From NCBI RefSeq assembly GCF_029502005.1, contig NZ_JAMQOT010000002.1:372001-436000 (forward strand): a stretch of 64,000 bases of DNA, in the 5' to 3' direction. The notes below the pieces were generated by a model. It did no database searches. It had not been told where the DNA came from and saw only the letters and a program-made list of their open reading frames with translations. The DNA comes from Natrinema salsiterrestre (GTDB lineage: Archaea > Halobacteriota > Halobacteria > Halobacteriales > Natrialbaceae). The position numbers and the translations under genes were made by a program. This document shows positions 6,095 to 60,009 of the stretch, piece after piece. How positions within the stretch are numbered: the first letter of the stretch is position 1; the number at the start of each line of letters is the position of its first letter.

Positions 6095-7015
6095 ATGCTC
6101 GAACACGTACTCAACGGGCTGTACTACGGCTCGATCCTGTTCATGATCGCGTCGGGGATGACGATCATCTTCGGCGTGCTCGGGATCCTCAACCTCGCCC
6201 ACGGCGAGTTGTACGCGCTGGGCGCGTTCAGCGCGTTCAGCATCATCGGCTTCGTCGCGGGACAGGTCGCGGCTCCGACCGGTCCAGTGACGGCGATCGT
6301 CTTCGGCGTCGTCGTCCTCGCCGGCTCGCTCGCGACCGCCGCCGTGTTGCTGCCGGTCGGCGGCGCGCTCGAGGCGGCGTTCATCAGGCCGATTTACGAT
6401 CGGGACGAGGTCTATCAGCTCCTGCTGACGTACGGGCTGTTGCTGGTCCTCACCGACGTCATGAAGTTCGTCTGGGGGCCGTCACCGGTCGACCTGGGGG
6501 TCTTCGGCGGCATCAACGAGATTCCGACGACGGAGCTCGTCGGCATCGATTACCCCTCGTACAACGTCTTCGTCATCCTGATCGGCATCGCAGTGTTCGC
6601 CTGGCTCGTCTGGTTCTTCGATCGGACGAAGACCGGCCGAATCGTGCGAGCGACGGCCATCAACCGGGAGATGTCGACCGCGATCGGCATCAGTACGGAC
6701 CGCATGTTCACCCTCGTGTTCGCCATCGGCGCGTTCTTCGCCGGTTTCGGCGGTGCGATGGTCAGCATCGGACCCGGCTCGGCCTCCCTCGGAATGGGAC
6801 TCGACTGGCTGGTGCTTTCGTTCGTCGTGATCGTCATCGGGGGACTCGGCAGCCTGAACGGTGCGTTCGTCGGATCGATGCTGGTCGGCGTCTCCAGCCG
6901 CGTCGTGACGCCGTACTATCCGCAGCTCGAGCTGGCCGTTCCGTTCCTCCTCATGGTGCTCGTCTTGCTGCTCAAACCGGAGGGACTCTACGGGGCGTGG
7001 GGTGAGATCCAATGA
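6095..7015 (+). CDS. livH: Liv-type ABC permease, LivH family
   Basis: A 306-residue membrane permease with about eight hydrophobic segments. The LivH hallmark GILNLAHGELYALGAF is near residues 29-44. The C-terminal part has GGLGSLNGAFVGSMLVG and the ending LLLKPEGLYG, both typical of the family. It forms half of the channel with the next gene, with which it overlaps by ATGA (7012-7015). The start is 28 bp after the binding-protein stop. Confidence 0.95.
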   Translation: MLEHVLNGLYYGSILFMIASGMTIIFGVLGILNLAHGELYALGAFSAFSIIGFVAGQVAAPTGPVTAIVFGVVVLAGSLATAAVLLPVGGALEAAFIRPIYDRDEVYQLLLTYGLLLVLTDVMKFVWGPSPVDLGVFGGINEIPTTELVGIDYPSYNVFVILIGIAVFAWLVWFFDRTKTGRIVRATAINREMSTAIGISTDRMFTLVFAIGAFFAGFGGAMVSIGPGSASLGMGLDWLVLSFVVIVIGGLGSLNGAFVGSMLVGVSSRVVTPYYPQLELAVPFLLMVLVLLLKPEGLYGAWGEIQ

Positions 7016-8154
7016 GTCGCTTCCTCGTCGACCGCGACGGCGAAACGCACCTTCGTCTCGCGGAGGGGATGGAACTGACGAAGAATCAGGCGGTCCTCGC
7101 TGCCGTCGGGCTCGTCGCCCTCCTCATCGTTCCCGACATCACGCGGTTCACCCCGCTCTCGTTCACCGCGATCCACCGCGGGATCCTGTTCGGGCTCGCG
7201 GCGGTCGGGTTGAACCTCCTCTTGCGCCACACCGAACTCGTCTCGTTCGGTCACGCGGCGTTCTTCGGCGTCGGGGCGTACGCCGCCGCCGTGTTAGCGT
7301 CTCAGTTCGACGTCTCGAGCGGCCTCTTGATGCTGCTGGGAAGCGTCCTCGCGGCGACGGCGATCTCGGTGTTGATCGGCTACTTCGTCGCCGGCTACCT
7401 CGACATCTACTTCGCGTTGCTGACGCTCGCGTTCAACCAGGTGCTGTACGCGTTCGTCCTGCAGAGCGGCTACTTCAACTACAGCGACGGGCTCAACGTC
7501 CGCCCCGACGGGCTGAACCCGCCCGCGCTGTTCGGCCTCCAGCTGAGCTCGACGGGGTACGAACTGGTCCTGTACTACCTTACGGTCGTCGTGCTCGTCG
7601 TCTCGCTGCTGGTGATGTGGAAACTCGTCAACTCGCCGTTCGGCAGGGCATTAGACGCTATCGGTCAGAACCGGACGCGGGCGAGGTTCGTCGGTATTCC
7701 CGTCGAAAAGTACGTCTGGGTCGCGTTCGTGATCTCGGGCATCTACGGCGGACTCGCCGGGGGGCTCTTCGCCCTCCTGCAGTTGCACGTCAGCCCGGAA
7801 CCGACGCTGTACGCGTTCGTCTCGGGCGAGATCCTGTTCATGGCGATCCTCGGCGGGTTCGGCACCCTCGTCGGCCCCGTTATCGGCGGCGTCGTCCTCG
7901 TCTACCTGCTGGTTCAGGCGCCGTTCTACATCGAGTATTACAACGCCTTGACCGGCCTGATGCTGCTCGCAGTCGTGCTCTTCCTGCCGGAAGGGATCCT
8001 GGGATCGATCCCGAAAATCGGCACGGGACTGTCGCGGCGGCGTCGCGATCCCGGCCTGCTCCGGGAGGACGTCGCGACGATCGGTTCGTCGCTCCGTCGG
8101 GGCGTGTCTCGCGCCGCAACCACCGTTCGAATCATCGTATTCGGGGTCAACTGA
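7012..8154 (+). CDS. livM: Liv-type ABC permease, LivM family
   Basis: A 380-residue inner-membrane permease, the partner of LivH. After about 38 hydrophilic N-terminal residues come roughly ten hydrophobic segments. The family motif LVSFGHAAFFGVGAYAAA is near residues 77-94. The conserved cytoplasmic coupling region (GRALDAIGQNRTRARFVG) and the ending with LPEGILGSIP are present. The start overlaps livH by four bases and the ATPase gene follows after one base, so the five genes form one transcription unit. Confidence 0.95.
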   Translation: MSRFLVDRDGETHLRLAEGMELTKNQAVLAAVGLVALLIVPDITRFTPLSFTAIHRGILFGLAAVGLNLLLRHTELVSFGHAAFFGVGAYAAAVLASQFDVSSGLLMLLGSVLAATAISVLIGYFVAGYLDIYFALLTLAFNQVLYAFVLQSGYFNYSDGLNVRPDGLNPPALFGLQLSSTGYELVLYYLTVVVLVVSLLVMWKLVNSPFGRALDAIGQNRTRARFVGIPVEKYVWVAFVISGIYGGLAGGLFALLQLHVSPEPTLYAFVSGEILFMAILGGFGTLVGPVIGGVVLVYLLVQAPFYIEYYNALTGLMLLAVVLFLPEGILGSIPKIGTGLSRRRRDPGLLREDVATIGSSLRRGVSRAATTVRIIVFGVN

Positions 8155-13865: not shown

Positions 13866-13943
13866 ACGAACAGGAAATCGGGCCGCATTCAGCGGGGACC
13901 GAACAGGGGTAGTACGGTTCGGTTTCCGTGCGGGGAACCGCCT

Positions 13944-14693
13944 TCACCGGCGGCAGTGGACCCACGCACCGCCAGCGATCGCGATCACTGCCGCACCGAG
14001 TCCGAATCCGGGCTGCGAGTCACCGTCGTTCGTCCCATCCGACGGGGCGATGACTGCCTCGAACCCGTCGAGAGAGGTGGTCGCATCCCAGCTGACCTGT
14101 CCGTCAGCACGCTCCGACGGCTCCGGCGTCGACTCCGCGAGCGCGTATCCGTCGGGCAGCTCGAGGACGACCGCCTGCTCCGCCGTGAACCCGCTCGTGA
14201 ACGGTTCCGCGACGGTCAGCCGCCCGTCTTCGGTGGCTGCGAACCCGCGCCAGGTTGCCGAGACGGAGACGATACCGCGATCGGTCCCCTCGTCCGTTTC
14301 GAAGGAGACGCCAGCCTCCTCGATCGCCATCTCTCGGTCGGTTTCGTCGGCCACGCCGGCCACGACCGACCGCAATCGGCGTTCGGTGCGCGACTCGAGT
14401 TCGCTCCGTTCCGTTTCGTTCTCCTCGAGCGACCGGAAGGCCGCCTGATCCGCCTCGTCGGTCAGGTCGAAGGTGACGGCGACGGTCACCGTCGCGTCGC
14501 CGTCGTCCTCGAGGGCGACCACGAACGCCGAGTCCGAGCCCGTCTCCTGTGAGTGGGCGTCGATCGCACTCGCGCTATCGGCCGTTGCGACGACGCTTCC
14601 GGTCAGGAGGAGCGCGACCACCACGACGGCGAAGAGCCGCGACGTGGACGCACCCAGCCGCCGGAATTGAAGTCCATTCGGGCCTCGATTCAT
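13944..14693 (-). CDS. Exported DUF7345-like protein with PGF-CTERM anchor
   Basis: A 249-residue surface protein. An N-terminal signal/TM (LFAVVVVALLLTGSVVATA, about 20-38) leads into one extracytoplasmic domain related to residues 50-220 of the protein at 16491-17648 (shared features: a stretch of acidic residues before an E-R-rich helix, a conserved W, a T-x-x-FEAVI/VRF-like end). The C-terminus is QPGFGLGAAVIAIAGGAWVHCRR, which matches the tripartite PGF-CTERM sorting signal (PGF motif, hydrophobic stretch, basic end) cut by archaeosortase A. That enzyme is encoded at 44961-46007. The start overlaps the stop of the gene at 14690. Confidence 0.85.
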   Translation of the reverse strand: MNRGPNGLQFRRLGASTSRLFAVVVVALLLTGSVVATADSASAIDAHSQETGSDSAFVVALEDDGDATVTVAVTFDLTDEADQAAFRSLEENETERSELESRTERRLRSVVAGVADETDREMAIEEAGVSFETDEGTDRGIVSVSATWRGFAATEDGRLTVAEPFTSGFTAEQAVVLELPDGYALAESTPEPSERADGQVSWDATTSLDGFEAVIAPSDGTNDGDSQPGFGLGAAVIAIAGGAWVHCRR

Positions 14694-50917: not shown

Positions 50918-51706
50918 CTACGAGTCCGCGGCGAGATAGTCCCGGATCCGACGCCCCTGTGGATAGGTGAACGTCACAGTTCCGTGGAGAACCGACGGCG
51001 TCGAGAGCGGCTCGAGCGGAGCGAAGCGCTGGAACGGCGACTCCTCGGGGAACTCGAAGTCGATGCGATCGACCTCGGCCTCGTACAGCTCGCTGACGAA
51101 GGGGATCGGGAACTCGAGGAGTTCGCTGACCTGCGCTCGAGCGCCCGCAGGATCCGGGAACTGCCGGTGGGCGTAGTAGTGGAGGTGGCCGGTGAGCGTG
51201 TCGATTTGTTGGTCGCCGACGGTCGCTTCGACCTCGAGGACGGGTTCGTCGTCGACGGAGAGCGTCGAGACCAATTGCCCGTCGGCTTCCTCCCACTCGC
51301 ACGACCCGGCGAGACTCGGGATCCCGCCGGCCTCGCGGGTGAACGTCCGCATCTGCGGGGAATCCGTCCAGTAGCCGACCCAGAAGCGGCCCGGAACGGG
51401 CATCTCGCCCTGACCAGTGCTGATCGCGCGGCTGTCGTGGTCGGCGACTTCCACCGTCAGGTAGGTGAGCGTGTACGGCTCGAGGAGACTCGTTCTCTCG
51501 GCCGACGGCACCTGATACGTGTTCAGCTGGACGAGGGTGTTCGGGTGGGGCTCGAGCCCGGGCGGCAGTGCGTCCGCGAGCACGTCGGGATCGGCCTCGT
51601 AGCCGACGATGAGCATGCGCGCGTTCTTGATCAGCTGGGGCGGTGATACGGCCGTTCCCTCCGGCATTCCGGTGTAGGTCTCGGGGGTGAACTGGTGGTC
51701 GCTCAT
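50918..51706 (-). CDS. Acetoacetate decarboxylase-like protein lacking the active lysine
   Basis: A 262-residue protein with the ADC-fold layout (PPQLIKNARMLIVGYEADPDVLADALPPGLEP ... YLTVEVADHD). At the place of the Schiff-base lysine in PK(K) the sequence reads TREAGGIPSLAG, so the catalytic Lys appears absent; it may bind or act on keto-acids in another way. It starts 13 bp after the alpha/beta hydrolase stop and is probably in one operon with it. Confidence 0.7.
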   Translation of the reverse strand: MSDHQFTPETYTGMPEGTAVSPPQLIKNARMLIVGYEADPDVLADALPPGLEPHPNTLVQLNTYQVPSAERTSLLEPYTLTYLTVEVADHDSRAISTGQGEMPVPGRFWVGYWTDSPQMRTFTREAGGIPSLAGSCEWEEADGQLVSTLSVDDEPVLEVEATVGDQQIDTLTGHLHYYAHRQFPDPAGARAQVSELLEFPIPFVSELYEAEVDRIDFEFPEESPFQRFAPLEPLSTPSVLHGTVTFTYPQGRRIRDYLAADS

Positions 51707-51719
51707 GGCTGTGTCAGTG

Positions 51720-53087
51720 TTACTTGTTCGCCGCCACGCCGAAATCGTCGGGCGCGAAGACCTCGGGGATCGGTTCGTCTCGGACGCCGCGGATGTCCTC
51801 GAGGACGGGCTCGAGGTAGGCCCGGAACAGCTCCGGACGCTCGCTCATCGGGAAATGGCCGGTCGCCTTCATCTCGTGGGCGGTCGCGCCGTCGCCGATC
51901 GCCGCGGCGGCCTCGCGCGCATCGTCGGGGTTGGTCAGGTAGTCGTACTCGCCGTTCATCAGGTACATCCGCACCTGCGTGGCGTCGATCTCGTCGGCGG
52001 TGTCGCTGTAATCGTGGTCCATCGAGTAGTAGTGGAGGTCACCCTTGAGGACGCCGTTGGCACCCTGCTCGTACAGGTACAGCGTTTCGCGGCGCGCCCA
52101 CTCCGGTCCGTGGGGAGCCATCAGCCCCCACGTCGCGTGGGAGTTGACGTCGTTGGCATTGACGTGTGGATGGTCGAGCCACTGGATGTAGAACCCGGGC
52201 GTGAACAGGCCCGCCTCGAGGCCGATCAGCGCCCGGAACCGGTCGGCGTGCCAGTCCGCGAGCTCGAGCGTAATCGTCCCGCCCATGCTCGAGCCGATGA
52301 ACACGGGGTCCTCGAGCTCGAGGGCGTCGGCGATCGAGACGATGGTATCGGTGAACCGCTCGGCGGTGAGGTCGTACCGGTCGGCCCACCACGATTCGCT
52401 CGACGGCGGGACCGACTTGCCGTGGCGGGGCAGGTCGTAGGCTATGACCCGGAAGTGCTCGGTTATCTCGGGGTCGTTCAGCACGTGCCGCCACTGCTGG
52501 TTGTTACACCCGGCCGTGTGTTGACAGAGGAGCGGGATGCCGTCCGCCGGGCCGGCCGCCTCGTAGTAGATGCGGTGATCGACGCCGTCGAGATCGATGG
52601 TGACGTACTGGCCCGTAATTGGCTCGTCAGTCGCTTCTCGCGGCCGATGAGAGCCTTCGGTGCGCGGTTCGCCGCCGTTGTGGGCCGTCCGCATCAACTC
52701 GAGCGCGCGCTGGAACCCGCGGAAGTTCTGGAAGATCTTCTTGTGGTTGCCGATCAGGTCGAAGTACCCGTCCTCGCCTTTGACCGCGGTCCGGTAGAAA
52801 GAGGCGAACACCTCGTTGTGGTGAGCCGCCGGGACCTCGCTGACGAACTCCTCCCACGCCTCGCGCGGCCCGACGACCCCGAACGACCACGCGTCGTCCA
52901 GCCCCGGCGCTCGGACGTCCCGTACCTCACCGCCCTGCATCTCGAGCAGGTAGTGTTCGTCGCCGATCCCGACGAGGAAGTCCTCGTCGAACGCGTCGCG
53001 GCCGTGCTGGGTCATCTCCGGGTCCGCGTTCACGACGTCTCGATACTCGCTCCACCACGCCTCGCTGGCCAGTGTTCGGTCTGCCAT
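51720..53087 (-). CDS. Alpha/beta hydrolase with N-terminal SCP2-like domain
   Basis: A 455-residue protein. Residues ~1-150 resemble a sterol-carrier (SCP2) type lipid-binding domain. Residues ~165-440 are an alpha/beta hydrolase: nucleophile Ser in GSSMGG, Asp in MNGEYDYL, His in KATGHFP, and oxyanion region LPRHGKS. The combination suggests hydrolysis of a hydrophobic ester or a C-C bond of a keto-compound. It is upstream of the ADC-like gene. Confidence 0.82.
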   Translation of the reverse strand: MADRTLASEAWWSEYRDVVNADPEMTQHGRDAFDEDFLVGIGDEHYLLEMQGGEVRDVRAPGLDDAWSFGVVGPREAWEEFVSEVPAAHHNEVFASFYRTAVKGEDGYFDLIGNHKKIFQNFRGFQRALELMRTAHNGGEPRTEGSHRPREATDEPITGQYVTIDLDGVDHRIYYEAAGPADGIPLLCQHTAGCNNQQWRHVLNDPEITEHFRVIAYDLPRHGKSVPPSSESWWADRYDLTAERFTDTIVSIADALELEDPVFIGSSMGGTITLELADWHADRFRALIGLEAGLFTPGFYIQWLDHPHVNANDVNSHATWGLMAPHGPEWARRETLYLYEQGANGVLKGDLHYYSMDHDYSDTADEIDATQVRMYLMNGEYDYLTNPDDAREAAAAIGDGATAHEMKATGHFPMSERPELFRAYLEPVLEDIRGVRDEPIPEVFAPDDFGVAANK

Positions 53088-53873: not shown

Positions 53874-55193
53874 TTAGCTATCCGGTGATCGCGTTCGTGA
53901 CGCGGTCGATTCGACGTCGCCCGCGAACCGCTCGTCGAACCGGTGGCAGGCGATCGGATGCCGTGCCGTTCCGTCGGTCAGTTCCGGCTCGACCGTCTCG
54001 CAGGGCGTCTCGAACGCCGACGCGAGCCGGTCCCGAGCGTCCTCGAGATCGGCGGCAGCGACGGCCTCGAGCGCGTCCGAGAGTGCGGCGTCCGCATCGG
54101 GATCGCGAAGTCGAGCGGGAATCCCGTGAGCGTCCCGGAGCGCATCGGGAACGGTCTCGTGCTCGTCGGATCGCGGAAGCAGCGTCTCGGGCCCCGCGTC
54201 GGCGTCCGCGTTCGCGAGTCGGGTTCGCAGCCGCATGATCGCCCGGAACGCGTGGTCCGTGAGATCGTATTCTGCCGGCGGGATGACCCTCGGACAGCGC
54301 GTGTGAAACCGGCAGCCTGCGGGCGGATCGGTCGGCGAGGGGACGTCCCCCTCGAGGACGATGCGGTCGCCCTCCCAGCAGGGGTCGGGTTCGGGGATGG
54401 CCGACAGCAGCGCCTCCGTATAGGGGTGTGACGGGGCGTCGAAGACCTCGGCCGTCGTTCCGGTCTCGACGACCTCCCCGAGGTACATCACCGCCACCCG
54501 ATCGGCGATGTGCTCGACCACCGAGAGATCGTGAGCGATGAACAGATAGGAGAGATCGAACTCGTCCTGCAGGTCGGACAGCAGGTTGAGGATCCGCGCC
54601 TGTACCGAGACGTCGAGCGCGGAGACGGGCTCGTCGCAGACGATGAAATCGGGTTCGACGGCGAGCGCGCGAGCGATGGCGACCCGCTGGCGCTGGCCGC
54701 CGGAGAACTCGCGGGGATACCGGCTCGCGTGTCCGGCCTGCAGTCCGACCGTCTCGAGCAGCTCCCGAACCCGTTCGTCGCGTCGCTCGGCGGGCACGAT
54801 ATCGTGGACCTCGAGGGCCTCCCCGACGATATCGGCGACCGTCAACTGCGGGTTGAGACTGGCCATCGGGTTCTGGAAGACGTACTGGATCTCGGTCCGG
54901 AGCGCCCGGAGTCGCGACCGGGAGCAGCCCGTCACCTCGGTCCCGCGGTAGGTGATCGTGCCGGCGGTCGGCTCGAGCAGCCGGACGAGCGTTCGGCCGA
55001 GCGTCGTCTTGCCGCAGCCGCTCTCGCCGACCAGCCCGAGGGTCTCGCCCGCGCGGATCTCGAGGTCGACGCCGTCGACCGCTCGGACCGTCTCCGCCCG
55101 CCCGAGGAGCCGGTCGAGGAAGCCGTCGGCGGTCGTGTAATACTTTTCGAGGCCTTCCGCGCGGATCAGGGGCTCGCCGTCGCTCGCCGTCAC
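53874..55193 (-). CDS. dppF: Dipeptide/oligopeptide ABC ATPase, DppF-like
   Basis: A 439-residue ATPase. Walker [10 protein letters not shown] (56-64), signature [15 protein letters not shown], Walker [12 protein letters not shown]. The family C-terminal motif CRFHTRCP is present. About 120 extra residues after it are acidic helices, unlike most DppF. Overlaps the previous ATPase gene's stop by four bases. Confidence 0.92.
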
Positions 55194-56284
55194 TCCGGCT
55201 CACCTCGCTCGGTCCGTTCCCGCTCCCGTTCGTGACTCTCCCCGTCCGTCTCGTTTCGCACCAGGACCTCGTAGTCCAGTCCGTCTTCGAGATCGCCGGT
55301 GTACTCGAGACAGGCCGCGAGGTGTGCCCCGGGATCGTCGTCGGCGGCCGGCGTCTCCGAGTCCGTCTCGACGAGCGGCGGGTGGCGTCTGGCACACGCC
55401 GGCTCGGCGTAGGGACAGCGGGGGTGGAACCGACAGCCGGTCGGCGGATCGACGAGGCTCGGCGTCGGTCCGGGAACGGTCGCGAGGCGATCGCTGTCGG
55501 CCCCGAGCCGCGGGATCGAGGCCAGCAGCCCAACCGTGTAGGGATGCTTGGGATCGTAGTAGAGCTCCTCGACCGGTGCGCGCTCGACGATCTCTCCGGC
55601 GTACTGGACCAGGACCCGATCGCACAGCTCCGCGACGATCCCGAGGTCGTGCGTGACGAGCTGGATCGCCGTGTCCGATTCCCGGGCGAGCTCCGCGAGC
55701 AATTCGAGGATGCCCGCCTGAACGGTGACGTCGAGCCCCGTCGTCGGCTCGTCGCAGACGAGCAAGGCCGGGTCGCAGGCCAGCGCCATGGCGATCACGA
55801 CCCGCTGTTGCATCCCGCCGGAGAACTCGTGCGGGTAATCGGCGTAGCGCGTCGCCGGCTCCGGGATCCCGACCCGCTCGAGGAGCGCGATGGCGCGATC
55901 GCGGGCCTCGGCGTCGGTTACGTCCCCGTGAGCCCGGACCGCTTCGGCGATCTGTTCGCCGACGGTGTAGACGGGGTTGAGCGCCGCGTCGGCGTCCTGA
56001 AACACCATCGCGATGTCGTTCCCCCGGAGGTCCCTGAGTTCGCGATCCGTGCACTCGAGGAGGTTCCGGCCGTCGAACCGGATTTGCCCGCCGACGATCT
56101 CGCCGGGCGACCGGATCAGGCGGAGGAGCGCGAGACTGGCGACGCTCTTGCCCGCCCCGCTCTCGCCGACCAGTCCGACCGTCTCGCCCGCGCGGATCTC
56201 GTAGCTGATGCCGTCGACTGCCCGGACGACGCCGTCGTCGGTGTAGAACTGAACGGTCAGGTCCTCGACCTCGAGCAGCGCCAT
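55190..56284 (-). CDS. dppD: Dipeptide/oligopeptide ABC ATPase, DppD-like
   Basis: A 364-residue ATPase. Walker [10 protein letters not shown] (40-48), signature [15 protein letters not shown], Walker [18 protein letters not shown]-loop [10 protein letters not shown]-terminal [14 protein letters not shown] is the iron-sulphur-type/peptide-ABC motif. The ATG at 56284 overlaps the dppC stop by one base (TGATG); the longer frame to 56893 is spurious. Confidence 0.94.
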
Positions 56285-57405
56285 CAGCGCATCCGCCTCC
56301 GGTCGTCGCTCGCGTCCCGACGCGGTTCGAGCGCGTCGTTGATCCCGTCTCCGACGAGGTTGATCGCCAGGACGAACAGGAAGATCGCGAGGCCCGGGAA
56401 GACGGTGACGTGCCAGTGGCCCTGCAGGAGCGAGTCGCGGCCCCGCGACAGCATCGCACCCCACTCGGCGCTGCCGGGCTCGAGGCCGAGCCCGAGGAAG
56501 CCCAGCGCCGCCGCCGCGAGAACGACCGTGCCGACGTTGAGCGTCGCCTGAACGACGACGGGGGCGATCGCGTTCGGAACGACGTGTCGCCGGATGATCG
56601 TCCGATCGGGGACGCCGAGCGCGGTCGCGGCCGTCACGTATTCGCGCTCGCGAACCGAGAGGATCTCGCCGCGTAACAGCCTCGCGTAGCCGATCCATCC
56701 GGTAACGGTGAGTGCGAGAACCACCTCCCAGAACCCCCGCCCCGGGATCGGGAGCGGATCGAGAATCGGGACGATCGCGATCGCGAGGACCAGGAACGGA
56801 AAGGCGTACAGCACGTCGACGATGCGCATGACGAGTTCGTCGATCCGGCCGCCGAAATAGCCCGCGACCGCGCCGAGGGGAATCCCGACGCACAGCGCGA
56901 GCAGGACGGCGACGAGGCCGATACTCAGGGTGTAGCGGCCGCCGACGAGCACCCGGGCGAACTGATCTCGCCCGGCCCAGTCGGTTCCGAACGGGTGATC
57001 CCAGGAGGGCGGGGCGTTCGCCGCGCCGACGAACGGCTCGTGGGGATCGTGCGGAGCCAGCGCGACCGGCTGGAGCGTGATCGTGTACTCCGCCGTCGAG
57101 ACTTCGATCGGTCGCGCGAAGATCGCGAGCACCGCCATGACGGCGATGATCGTCACGCCCAGCATCGCCGTTCGGTTCCGTCGGAACCGGCGGGCCGCGT
57201 CCTCGAGTCGCCGTCCGTCCGGTCCCTCGGCGCTCCGCTCCGTCGCCGCCGCTGCCGTCGGGGAATCCGGTTCGGTCTCGGCGCTCGCTTCCCCCGTGGA
57301 AGGACTCGAGTCCCGCGAGTCACCGTCGCGGTCGTCCGACTCCGGCTCGTCGAAGCCGACGATGCGAATTCGGCCGCGTTCGGTAGTGGGGTGTCGGTCG
57401 CTCAT
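56284..57405 (-). CDS. dppC: Dipeptide/oligopeptide ABC permease, DppC-like
   Basis: A 373-residue permease. An extended hydrophilic N-terminus (~75 residues, Ser/Glu/Asp-rich) precedes the first TM. The family sequence FGTDWAGRDQFARVLVGGRYTLSIG and the EAA loop GYARLLRGEILSVREREYVTAATALG are present. C-terminal LGLEPGSAEWGAMLSRGR and ...VLAINLVGDGINDALEPR. Starts 3 bp after dppB. Confidence 0.95.
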   Translation of the reverse strand: MSDRHPTTERGRIRIVGFDEPESDDRDGDSRDSSPSTGEASAETEPDSPTAAAATERSAEGPDGRRLEDAARRFRRNRTAMLGVTIIAVMAVLAIFARPIEVSTAEYTITLQPVALAPHDPHEPFVGAANAPPSWDHPFGTDWAGRDQFARVLVGGRYTLSIGLVAVLLALCVGIPLGAVAGYFGGRIDELVMRIVDVLYAFPFLVLAIAIVPILDPLPIPGRGFWEVVLALTVTGWIGYARLLRGEILSVREREYVTAATALGVPDRTIIRRHVVPNAIAPVVVQATLNVGTVVLAAAALGFLGLGLEPGSAEWGAMLSRGRDSLLQGHWHVTVFPGLAIFLFVLAINLVGDGINDALEPRRDASDDRRRMR

Positions 57406-57408
57406 TCG

Positions 57409-58356
57409 TTAGTATCGAATTCGGGGGTCGAGGAGCGCGTAGACGATGTCGACGAGCAGGTTCGCGAGGACGATCGAGACGCCGATGACCAGGACGGCGG
57501 CCTGGATGACGGGGTAGTCTCGCTGCAGGATGGACCGGACCAGCAGCCGGCCCATGCCCGGCCACGAGAAGATCTGCTCGACGACGACGGCGCCGTCGAC
57601 CAGGAACGCCAGCTGGAGGCCGGCGACGGTCACGACCGGCAACAGGGAGTTTCGCAGGACGTGTTTCAGGATCACCGTCCGCTCGCGGAGCCCCTTCGCG
57701 CGGGCCGTTCTGACGTAGGGCGCGTCGAGCTCTCGCCGCATCGAGGATCGCAACAGTCGCGTGACGAGCGCGGCCGAGGCCGTCCCGAGCGTGATCGTCG
57801 GCAGGATCATGAACTTCGCCATCGCGAGGCTCGCCAGCGGTGCGTCCGGCGGAATGACGCGGAACCAGCCCAGCCGAACGCTGAACACCAACAGGAGGAT
57901 CAGGCCGAGCCAGAAGTTCGGCGTCGCGATCCCGGCGAGCGCGCCGAGCCGAGTGAGTTCGTCGGCCGGCTCGCCCCGCTCGACCGCAGCGACGATCCCC
58001 GCCGGCACCCCGATCGCGAGCGCGAGGAGCCACGCCGCCCCGCCGAGCGCAAGCGTCGCGGGAAGCCGCCGACCGATCGTCGCCGTGACGCTCCGACCGG
58101 AGATCGGCGAGCGACCGAACTCGAGCGCGATCGCGTCCCGCAACCACAGCAGGTACTGTTTCCACAGCGGCTCGTCGAGGTGGTACTCGGCCCGGATCGA
58201 CGCCTCGGTGGCGGGACTGACGGTCCGAAAGCCGACGATCACGTCGATCGGGTCGCCCGGAAGCACGTGGAGAAACGAGAACGTGAGCGCGGTGACGCCG
58301 AGCAGGACTGGAACCGTGACCAGCACTCGCGTGAGAACGTATCGACCCAGCGACAT
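57409..58356 (-). CDS. dppB: Dipeptide/oligopeptide ABC permease, DppB-like
   Basis: A 315-residue permease with six TMs. The N-terminus YVLTRVLVTVPVLLGVTALTFSFLHVLPGDP, the EAA loop YVRTARAKGLRERTVILKHVLRNSLLP and the C-terminal LANLLVDIVYALLDPRIRY are all typical. It follows the binding-protein gene by 12 bp. Confidence 0.95.
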   Translation of the reverse strand: MSLGRYVLTRVLVTVPVLLGVTALTFSFLHVLPGDPIDVIVGFRTVSPATEASIRAEYHLDEPLWKQYLLWLRDAIALEFGRSPISGRSVTATIGRRLPATLALGGAAWLLALAIGVPAGIVAAVERGEPADELTRLGALAGIATPNFWLGLILLLVFSVRLGWFRVIPPDAPLASLAMAKFMILPTITLGTASAALVTRLLRSSMRRELDAPYVRTARAKGLRERTVILKHVLRNSLLPVVTVAGLQLAFLVDGAVVVEQIFSWPGMGRLLVRSILQRDYPVIQAAVLVIGVSIVLANLLVDIVYALLDPRIRY

Positions 58357-58368
58357 TGGTGATCCAGG

Positions 58369-60009
58369 TCAGGTCGGCTGTACGTACTCTTCGGCGATTC
58401 GCTCTTCGAACGCTTCGTCCGTGTAGTCCTCGAGGAGCGGCGAGATAGGGACGTACGCCGGTCGTCCGAGACCGTGATACACGTCCTCGAGAATCGTTCG
58501 ACGGGGAATCAGCATGTTACACCCCCGGCGGACCAGCTCGTTGGTAAACGGGCCGTGGTAGAGCGGATAGATCACCATATCGAATCCGCCGCCGATCCGG
58601 CGATCGACGCCGTACGCGTCGTCGGCCGCCAGATCGGACAGGCTGGCCGACGGAACGCCGGAACTGAAGTCGATATCGCCGACCTCGAGTGCGCCCTGCC
58701 GGGACGCCGCTTCGGTGATGATCTCGAGCCGCACCGTCTCGGCCGGCGGCGTCGCGGGGACCCCTTCTGAGCCACCGAACCAGTAGTCGTCGAACCGTTC
58801 GAGCCGCCAGTGATCGCCGGGCTGGTAGTCGGCGAACCGGTAAGGACCGGTTCCGATCGGCTCCGATTCGAGGTCGCGGTCGCCGTCGATGGCCGCCATC
58901 GGGACGATCGGAAGATCGAACAATCGTTTTTCGAAGGGACCGTACTCCCGCCAGCAGTGAACGTCCATCGTACGGTCGTCGACGATATCGATGGTCTCGT
59001 ACCAGTCGTAGACGTCGGACTCTCGAGGGGTGCCCTCGTACCGTTCGAACGATTTTTTGACGTGGTCGGCGGTAAGCTCCTCGCCGTTGTGGAACTGCAC
59101 GCCGTCTCTGAGGGTGAATCGATAGGTCGTCGCATCGAGTTGCTCCCACTCCTCGGCCAGAACCGGCCGGACCGAACCGTCGAAGTCGACCCCCGTGAGG
59201 CCCTCGTAGACGAGCTGGGTCGCCTGACTCGAGGCCGTGTCGTTCATCGAGACGGGGTCGGTGGCGGAGATATCGCTCCCGAGGTCGCCGACGAACTCGT
59301 CGCCGTCGAGATCCGTATAGACGCCCGCCCAGGGTGCGTATACCGCGTTGTACGTTCCCGACTCGAGCGGATACGCCCGCCAGCCGCTGACCGCGTCGGC
59401 GTTCCAGACGTGTGACGCTTCGCTCACGCGGACGAACGAGACCGGGGAATCGGCGACCAGGTGCTCCTGTAGCTGCCGGTAGATATCGACCCGCTCGTCG
59501 GGATCCGTTTCCTCGAGCCCGTTATCGATGTAGTCGTCGACGGTGTCGCTGGTGTAGTGGTTGATGTTGAGCCCGTCGGGCGTGTGATTCTCCGAGTGAA
59601 ACAACACGTTGACGTAGTCGTCGGGGTCCCATCCGCCGGTCCAGCTAACGATAAAAAGGGCGTTCGCATCGTTGGCAGCCGCCGTGTTCAAGCGATCGAG
59701 GTAGGTCGTCCACTTGTATTCCGACACCGAGACGTCGAAGAAGCCGGTGTCCTCGAGCGCGACTTCGAGGAGTTCCGCGAATCGGCTCCGTTCGGTGCCC
59801 TCGGTGATCGCGATGGTCGTTTCGAACGGCGGTTCGATTTCCGTCGCTTCGAACCCCTCCTGAATCAGCTCTTCGGCCGGACCGTCGGCTTCGATGTCGT
59901 TGCTACGGATACAGCCAGCCAGTCCGGTGACGCCGAGCGCTCCCACCCCCTCGAGTAGCGAGCGCCGCCGTAGGCGGCCCTCATCCCGGCCACCGCTATT
60001 CCCCGCCAT
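58369..60009 (-). CDS. Oligopeptide-type substrate-binding lipoprotein, circularly permuted
   Basis: A 546-residue SBP_bac_5-like protein, first gene of the ABC operon. Arg-Arg-Arg-Ser signal (residues 14-17) and lipobox Cys33 (LAGC). The lobes are in unusual order. Residues ~62-230 are what normally forms the C-terminal half (RFAELLEVALEDTGF ... YLDRLNTAA ... DPDDYVNVLFHSENHT ... DERVDIYRQLQEHLVADSP). Residues ~245-546 are the usual N-terminal half (LVYEGLTGVDFDGSV, FTLRDGVQFHNGEELTADHV, GTGPYRFADYQPGDHW, RRGCNMLIPRRTILEDVYHGLG). The ATG at 60009 is just before the Tat-type signal. Ligand is unknown. Confidence 0.88.
   Translation of the reverse strand: MAGNSGGRDEGRLRRRSLLEGVGALGVTGLAGCIRSNDIEADGPAEELIQEGFEATEIEPPFETTIAITEGTERSRFAELLEVALEDTGFFDVSVSEYKWTTYLDRLNTAAANDANALFIVSWTGGWDPDDYVNVLFHSENHTPDGLNINHYTSDTVDDYIDNGLEETDPDERVDIYRQLQEHLVADSPVSFVRVSEASHVWNADAVSGWRAYPLESGTYNAVYAPWAGVYTDLDGDEFVGDLGSDISATDPVSMNDTASSQATQLVYEGLTGVDFDGSVRPVLAEEWEQLDATTYRFTLRDGVQFHNGEELTADHVKKSFERYEGTPRESDVYDWYETIDIVDDRTMDVHCWREYGPFEKRLFDLPIVPMAAIDGDRDLESEPIGTGPYRFADYQPGDHWRLERFDDYWFGGSEGVPATPPAETVRLEIITEAASRQGALEVGDIDFSSGVPSASLSDLAADDAYGVDRRIGGGFDMVIYPLYHGPFTNELVRRGCNMLIPRRTILEDVYHGLGRPAYVPISPLLEDYTDEAFEERIAEEYVQPT

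Follow-up and report, generated by a model that had tools for sequence, protein, structure and literature searches.

A naturally circularly permuted cluster C substrate-binding lipoprotein encoded with an ordinary Dpp-type importer in a haloarchaeon

The window, a stretch of 64,000 nucleotides from Natrinema salsiterrestre, carries a gene for a substrate-binding protein (SBP) in which the two parts of the SBP_bac_5 domain stand in swapped order. By homology, the protein is a member of SBP_bac_5, that is of cluster C, with a permuted topology. We consider it very likely that it is a naturally circularly permuted lipoprotein that retains a two-lobed fold and serves an ordinary DppB-C-D-F-type importer. 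The gene is encoded together with two permeases and two Dpp/Opp-type ATPases, with dppB-C-D-F next to it, and domain matches to all four genes agreed with the expected intact operon in normal order (Table 1). The 546-residue product opens with RRRSLL...GLAGC, which reads as a Tat/lipobox start; RR, G32 and C33 are invariant in 25 relatives, and lipidation of Cys33 is predicted from this conserved RR...LAGC motif.

Table 1. Features of the permuted SBP gene and the adjoining transporter genes, in window coordinates.
Feature	Position	Strand	Remark
dppF-type ATPase (ABC_tran, oligo_HPY)	53874..55193	-	
dppD-type ATPase (ABC_tran, oligo_HPY)	55190..56284	-	
dppC-type permease (BPD_transp_1, OppC_N), normal order	56284..57405	-	Pfam
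dppB-type permease (BPD_transp_1), normal order	57409..58356	-	Pfam
Circularly permuted SBP_bac_5 lipoprotein, whole gene (546 aa + stop)	58369..60009	-	ATG at 60009
N-type block, aa 236-546 = DppA 1-328	58372..59304	-	New C-terminus at its end
Joint of old C- and N-terminus, about aa 231-238 (YTDLDGDE)	59296..59319	-	Comparison with termini of normal-order sister
C-type block, aa 44-232 = DppA about 329-502	59314..59880	-	AEELIQEGF helix at start
Tat signal peptide and lipobox LAGC, aa 1-33	59911..60009	-	Cys33 = predicted lipid anchor

The Pfam profile PF00496 matched the protein with 198.5 bits (gathering cut-off 32.4), in two stretches of swapped order, the best of which placed residues 280-534 on profile positions 2-259. 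No full-length alignment in normal order was obtained on the window protein, whereas a normal-order relative aligned in a single stretch (residues 79-446 on profile positions 2-366). SBP_bac_5 was the only Pfam family matched; the sugar-binding family of cluster B (type I) was not. A profile of 25 close relatives matched 100 distinct PDB sequences, and the alignments shown for these fell into two blocks whose order was swapped. With 5u4o, query residues 246-532 aligned with chain residues 51-337 (i-E 7e-44) and query residues 56-195 with chain residues 356-490 (i-E 8e-15). A profile of the C-type half alone matched AppA, GbpA, DppA and GsiB, reaching DppA 329-502 at E 1e-13. These swapped matches support the circular permutation put forward in the original prediction, which had also assigned two swapped blocks; the blocks stand, but their limits, proposed as residues 62-230 and 245-546, are revised to 44-232 and 236-546. 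The NCBIfam equivalog model for DppA scored 75.1 bits against a cut-off of 1005, which places the protein outside that equivalog.

The position of the cut was located by structural alignment. VIA-align superposed residues 237-546 of the predicted model on DppA 1-328 (Z 24.1) and residues 235-546 on GsiB 3-308 (Z 25.5). Because DppA 1-328 and 329-502 are matched in swapped order, the cut lies between DppA 328 and 329, with the former ends connected, confirming the claim that the join lies in the loop between the two parts. In the normal-order sister L110, the loop region reads ...PISPLLDDYSSESFQAEMREKYQGYD followed by PERARELLADGF..., the window protein ends in ...PISPLLEDYTDEAFEERIAEEYVQPT, and it starts, after Cys33 and a short linker, with PAEELIQEGFEATEIEPPFETTI. 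The C-terminus of L110 (...IYAPWADAYTTVGGG) and its mature N-terminus (...GPELVATLGADV) correspond to ...VYAPWAGVYTDLDGDEFVGDLGSDI in the window protein. By this comparison of termini, the permutation is clean, and only a few residues link the old C- and N-terminus. The new termini lie in the loop that precedes the conserved 'AkeLLaeAGy' helix.

The permuted order is conserved. Of 28 same-genus genomes, about 24 carried a co-linear full-length homolog (62-94% identity), and homologs at 46-51% identity turned up beyond the genus, within the same family. Natrinema, Haloterrigena, Natrialba and Natrarchaeobius are among the named carriers. Two HMMs of our own, one for the C-part and one for the N-part, placed C before N in every intact close relative. 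The window protein does not stand alone but is part of a conserved clade. Against the nearest relative, dN/dS was 0.26 in the C-half and 0.14 in the N-half, within a range of 0.13 to 0.26 for both halves; dN was zero over the 21 codons of the joint in the nearest-relative comparison, a short stretch evaluated by a simple counting method. Conservation of the order across genomes and genera, together with purifying selection, demonstrates that the arrangement is no artifact. An assembly error or a local rearrangement of one genome has practically no probability: the one broken gene, L035/L050, lies in an ambiguous stretch of a draft assembly, and against it stand dozens of genomes with the same order, some of them assembled into one or a few contigs, with identities of 46-94%.

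In that broken case, from Natrinema versiforme JCM 10478, the permuted gene shows up as two ORFs, one for the C-half and one for the N-half, which flank a stretch containing an ambiguous base, so that an assembly gap is more probable than a true split. Several other candidates were rejected: loci of Streptomyces and Nitriliruptoraceae with apparent coverage of the whole query proved on checking to be in normal order, as did high-coverage plasmid matches from Deinococcus, Rhizobium tumorigenes and A. tumefaciens.

The same protein also exists in normal order, in haloarchaeal orthologs L110-L118 and L052 (Haloferacaceae archaeon XH8), whose halves stand in the usual sequence but which share the operon of the window, with dppB-C-D-F 60-70% identical. 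In L184, the normal-order SBP is 50% identical to the window protein in the N-half and 41% in the C-half, and it is followed by dppB, dppC, dppD and dppF that are 63, 60, 65 and 70% identical to those of the window. Since the nearest normal-order relatives occupy the same SBP-dppB-C-D-F operon, the topology has changed while the partner transporter has stayed.

Two further features of the operon region were noted. Compared with the window's dppD, the homologs in L186 (about 6323-6606), L187 (about 13885-14174) and L191 (about 6999-7297) are extended by roughly 95 residues through an in-frame insertion, placed near residues 72-85 in the numbering of the window's copy. Downstream of dppF on the same strand (window 50918-53087, minus strand) lie an alpha/beta hydrolase gene and an acetoacetate-decarboxylase-family gene; the pair is retained in the close relative L189 but was not found in the L190 stretch, and its link to the transporter is therefore weak.

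The most likely route to the permuted gene would start from a tandem in-frame duplication. The first copy would then have lost its N-part but kept its signal, and the internal signal and the C-part of the second copy would have been lost as well. No duplicated intermediate was found. Fission followed by fusion, in which two half-genes were joined in opposite order, is an unlikely but serious alternative: it would give the same end product, and nothing here separates the two routes, yet no stand-alone halves were found and the only split copy, L035/L050, sits at the ambiguous assembly stretch described above.

The predicted structure is one fold rather than two unrelated domains; together with the PF00496 result above, this means that neither outcome named as contradicting the original prediction occurred. 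AlphaFold2 with a 93-row alignment returned one compact fold with pLDDT 92.1 and pTM 0.88; confidence was low only in the signal region (residues 1-36) and was about 97 around the joint. Two plasmid-derived proteins were left out of this alignment, and normal-order relatives were entered as separate halves only, so that the contacts between the halves come from the permuted rows. A model from 25 near relatives only had a pLDDT of 63. Fold searches, which align in chain order, covered mainly residues 233-546; this part of the model superposes on cluster C structures, and the match of the C-type half is at the sequence level only.

The prediction had also called the protein dipeptide-type, which holds at the level of the family but not at the level of the ligand-binding residues. 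In DppA, R383 and D436 (precursor numbering) hold the dipeptide termini (PMC12136057). In the profile alignment, R383 corresponds to I68/T69 and D436 to G126 of the window protein. With both equivalents absent, a dipeptide substrate is unsupported. The equivalents are also missing from the profile consensus, which was built mostly from normal-order sisters, indicating that their absence is unconnected with the permutation.

By family and operon, the window protein is most likely the binding component of the DppBCDF importer. Solute would be bound by the usual flytrap closure of the lobes and delivered to the permeases. A role as a sensor or a decayed paralog, no longer the binding subunit of the importer, is very improbable; the missing dipeptide-holding residues are compatible with it, but the gene is the SBP gene of its operon, in the same place as in the normal-order sisters, which lack those residues too, and dN/dS is far below 1. 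The Tat signal and predicted lipid anchor sit on the new N-terminus, so that attachment would be at a different point of the fold. We take DppA domain II to span about 191-478, which would put the new termini and the anchor on the lobe opposite the old termini.

The window protein is not the only permuted SBP in its genome. Three more, L005, L006 and L007 (L005 by architecture), belong to a second group, here type II, in addition to the type I group of the window protein. Type II comprises L005-L007, L090-L105, L130, L132, L134, L135, L137, L194 and L195. Proteins of this kind are widespread among haloarchaea and were also found in 2 of 198 sampled Actinomycetota genomes (L194 and L195). In Alphaproteobacteria, where sampling covered plasmids only, they occur on plasmids from Ketogulonicigenium, Neorhizobium and Nitratireductor. 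By hand count, 14 haloarchaeal genomes encode about 102 SBP_bac_5 proteins, of which at least 28 are permuted; the set was chosen for diversity, but several genomes were included for having a permuted match. Type II proteins are rearranged in the same manner as the window protein and belong to its family, but they form a separate clade, and no lipobox is present in the bacterial members L130 and L137. The C-terminal end lies before the AkeLLaeAGy helix in type I (PF00496 257-260) and after it in type II (PF00496 about 282-292), the type II cut falling about 27 residues later.

Some type II loci show features of their own. L006 and L007 are neighbors in the window's genome (L176, G000:C20:48000-66000), and no dppB-C-D-F match was found in the 18 kb surrounding them. 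L130 (NC_017385.1) and L137 (NZ_CP029209.1) are annotated just as ABC transporter substrate-binding protein, and their operons on bacterial plasmids adjoin genes for hydantoinase/oxoprolinase, M28 peptidase or Asp/Glu racemase; these neighbors give a hint at function for type II only.

The number of origins was estimated from a tree of 105 rows, for which the permuted sequences were first rotated into normal order and aligned, and junction columns were removed. Type II formed one clade of 38 rows (SH-aLRT 92), and type I lay within a haloarchaeal clade holding 19 normal-order rows (support 100). A constraint that placed every permuted protein in a single clade cost 115 log units (p-AU 0.00027), and trees of the two halves analyzed apart agreed. 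Type I as a single clade was neither shown nor rejected (p-AU 0.13). Since the large tree came from a quick search and has some long branches, we regard two independent origins of the permutation, type I and type II, as highly probable rather than settled. A single ancient permutation, with the normal-order sisters of the window protein having reverted, is very improbable. It would account for both groups being cut within the same roughly 30-residue region, and the quick search and long branches leave it some room, but the AU test and the agreement of the halves argue against it, the cut points differ by a helix, and a return to exactly the normal order would take another rearrangement.

Among known systems, GsiB (YliB, 1uqw), DppA (1dpp) and the B. 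anthracis protein 5u4o are homologous to the window protein in both halves by profile and share its operon type. The N-type half superposes on GsiB and DppA at Z about 24-25. The window protein differs from these cluster C SBPs in its swapped halves, in its termini at DppA 328/329 and in lacking the DppA dipeptide residues. TpMglB-2 (Tp0684), described as 'Type Ic / Cluster Bc' (PMC4990184), is a binding protein of an ABC importer that is circularly permuted in nature and retains a fold of two lobes. TpMglB-2, however, is a sugar-binding protein of type I/cluster B with another cut point and from other organisms, and sequence alignment of its permuted part is poor, whereas both halves of the window protein align clearly. 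It is the sole precedent that we found for a naturally permuted SBP, and the open-access papers searched yielded no earlier report of a permuted SBP_bac_5 protein. Tethering adaptation, suggested for TpMglB-2, is not supported here by the distribution of permuted proteins, because the normal-order sisters are also lipoproteins and the type II proteins L130 and L137 have no lipobox.

Taken together, SBP permutation is common in haloarchaea and present in some bacteria, and it leaves roughly a quarter of haloarchaeal SBP_bac_5 proteins with broken matches to standard domain models. That permutation recurs in family 5 SBPs as a functional change, with at least two events in one region of about 30 residues and, in type I, unchanged permeases and ATPases but a moved anchor, is a tentative reading that we consider possible but rather doubtful. 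At least two events at almost the same place point to a cut site tolerated by the fold, which could be put to use in the design of SBP biosensors. Natural permutations are rarely caught with an unpermuted ortholog still in the same operon with its partners; with permeases 60-63% identical between the permuted and unpermuted systems, the role of topology and anchor in docking, closure and transport becomes testable. If the reading is true, the moved lipid anchor of type I would present the binding protein to the transporter in a different way.
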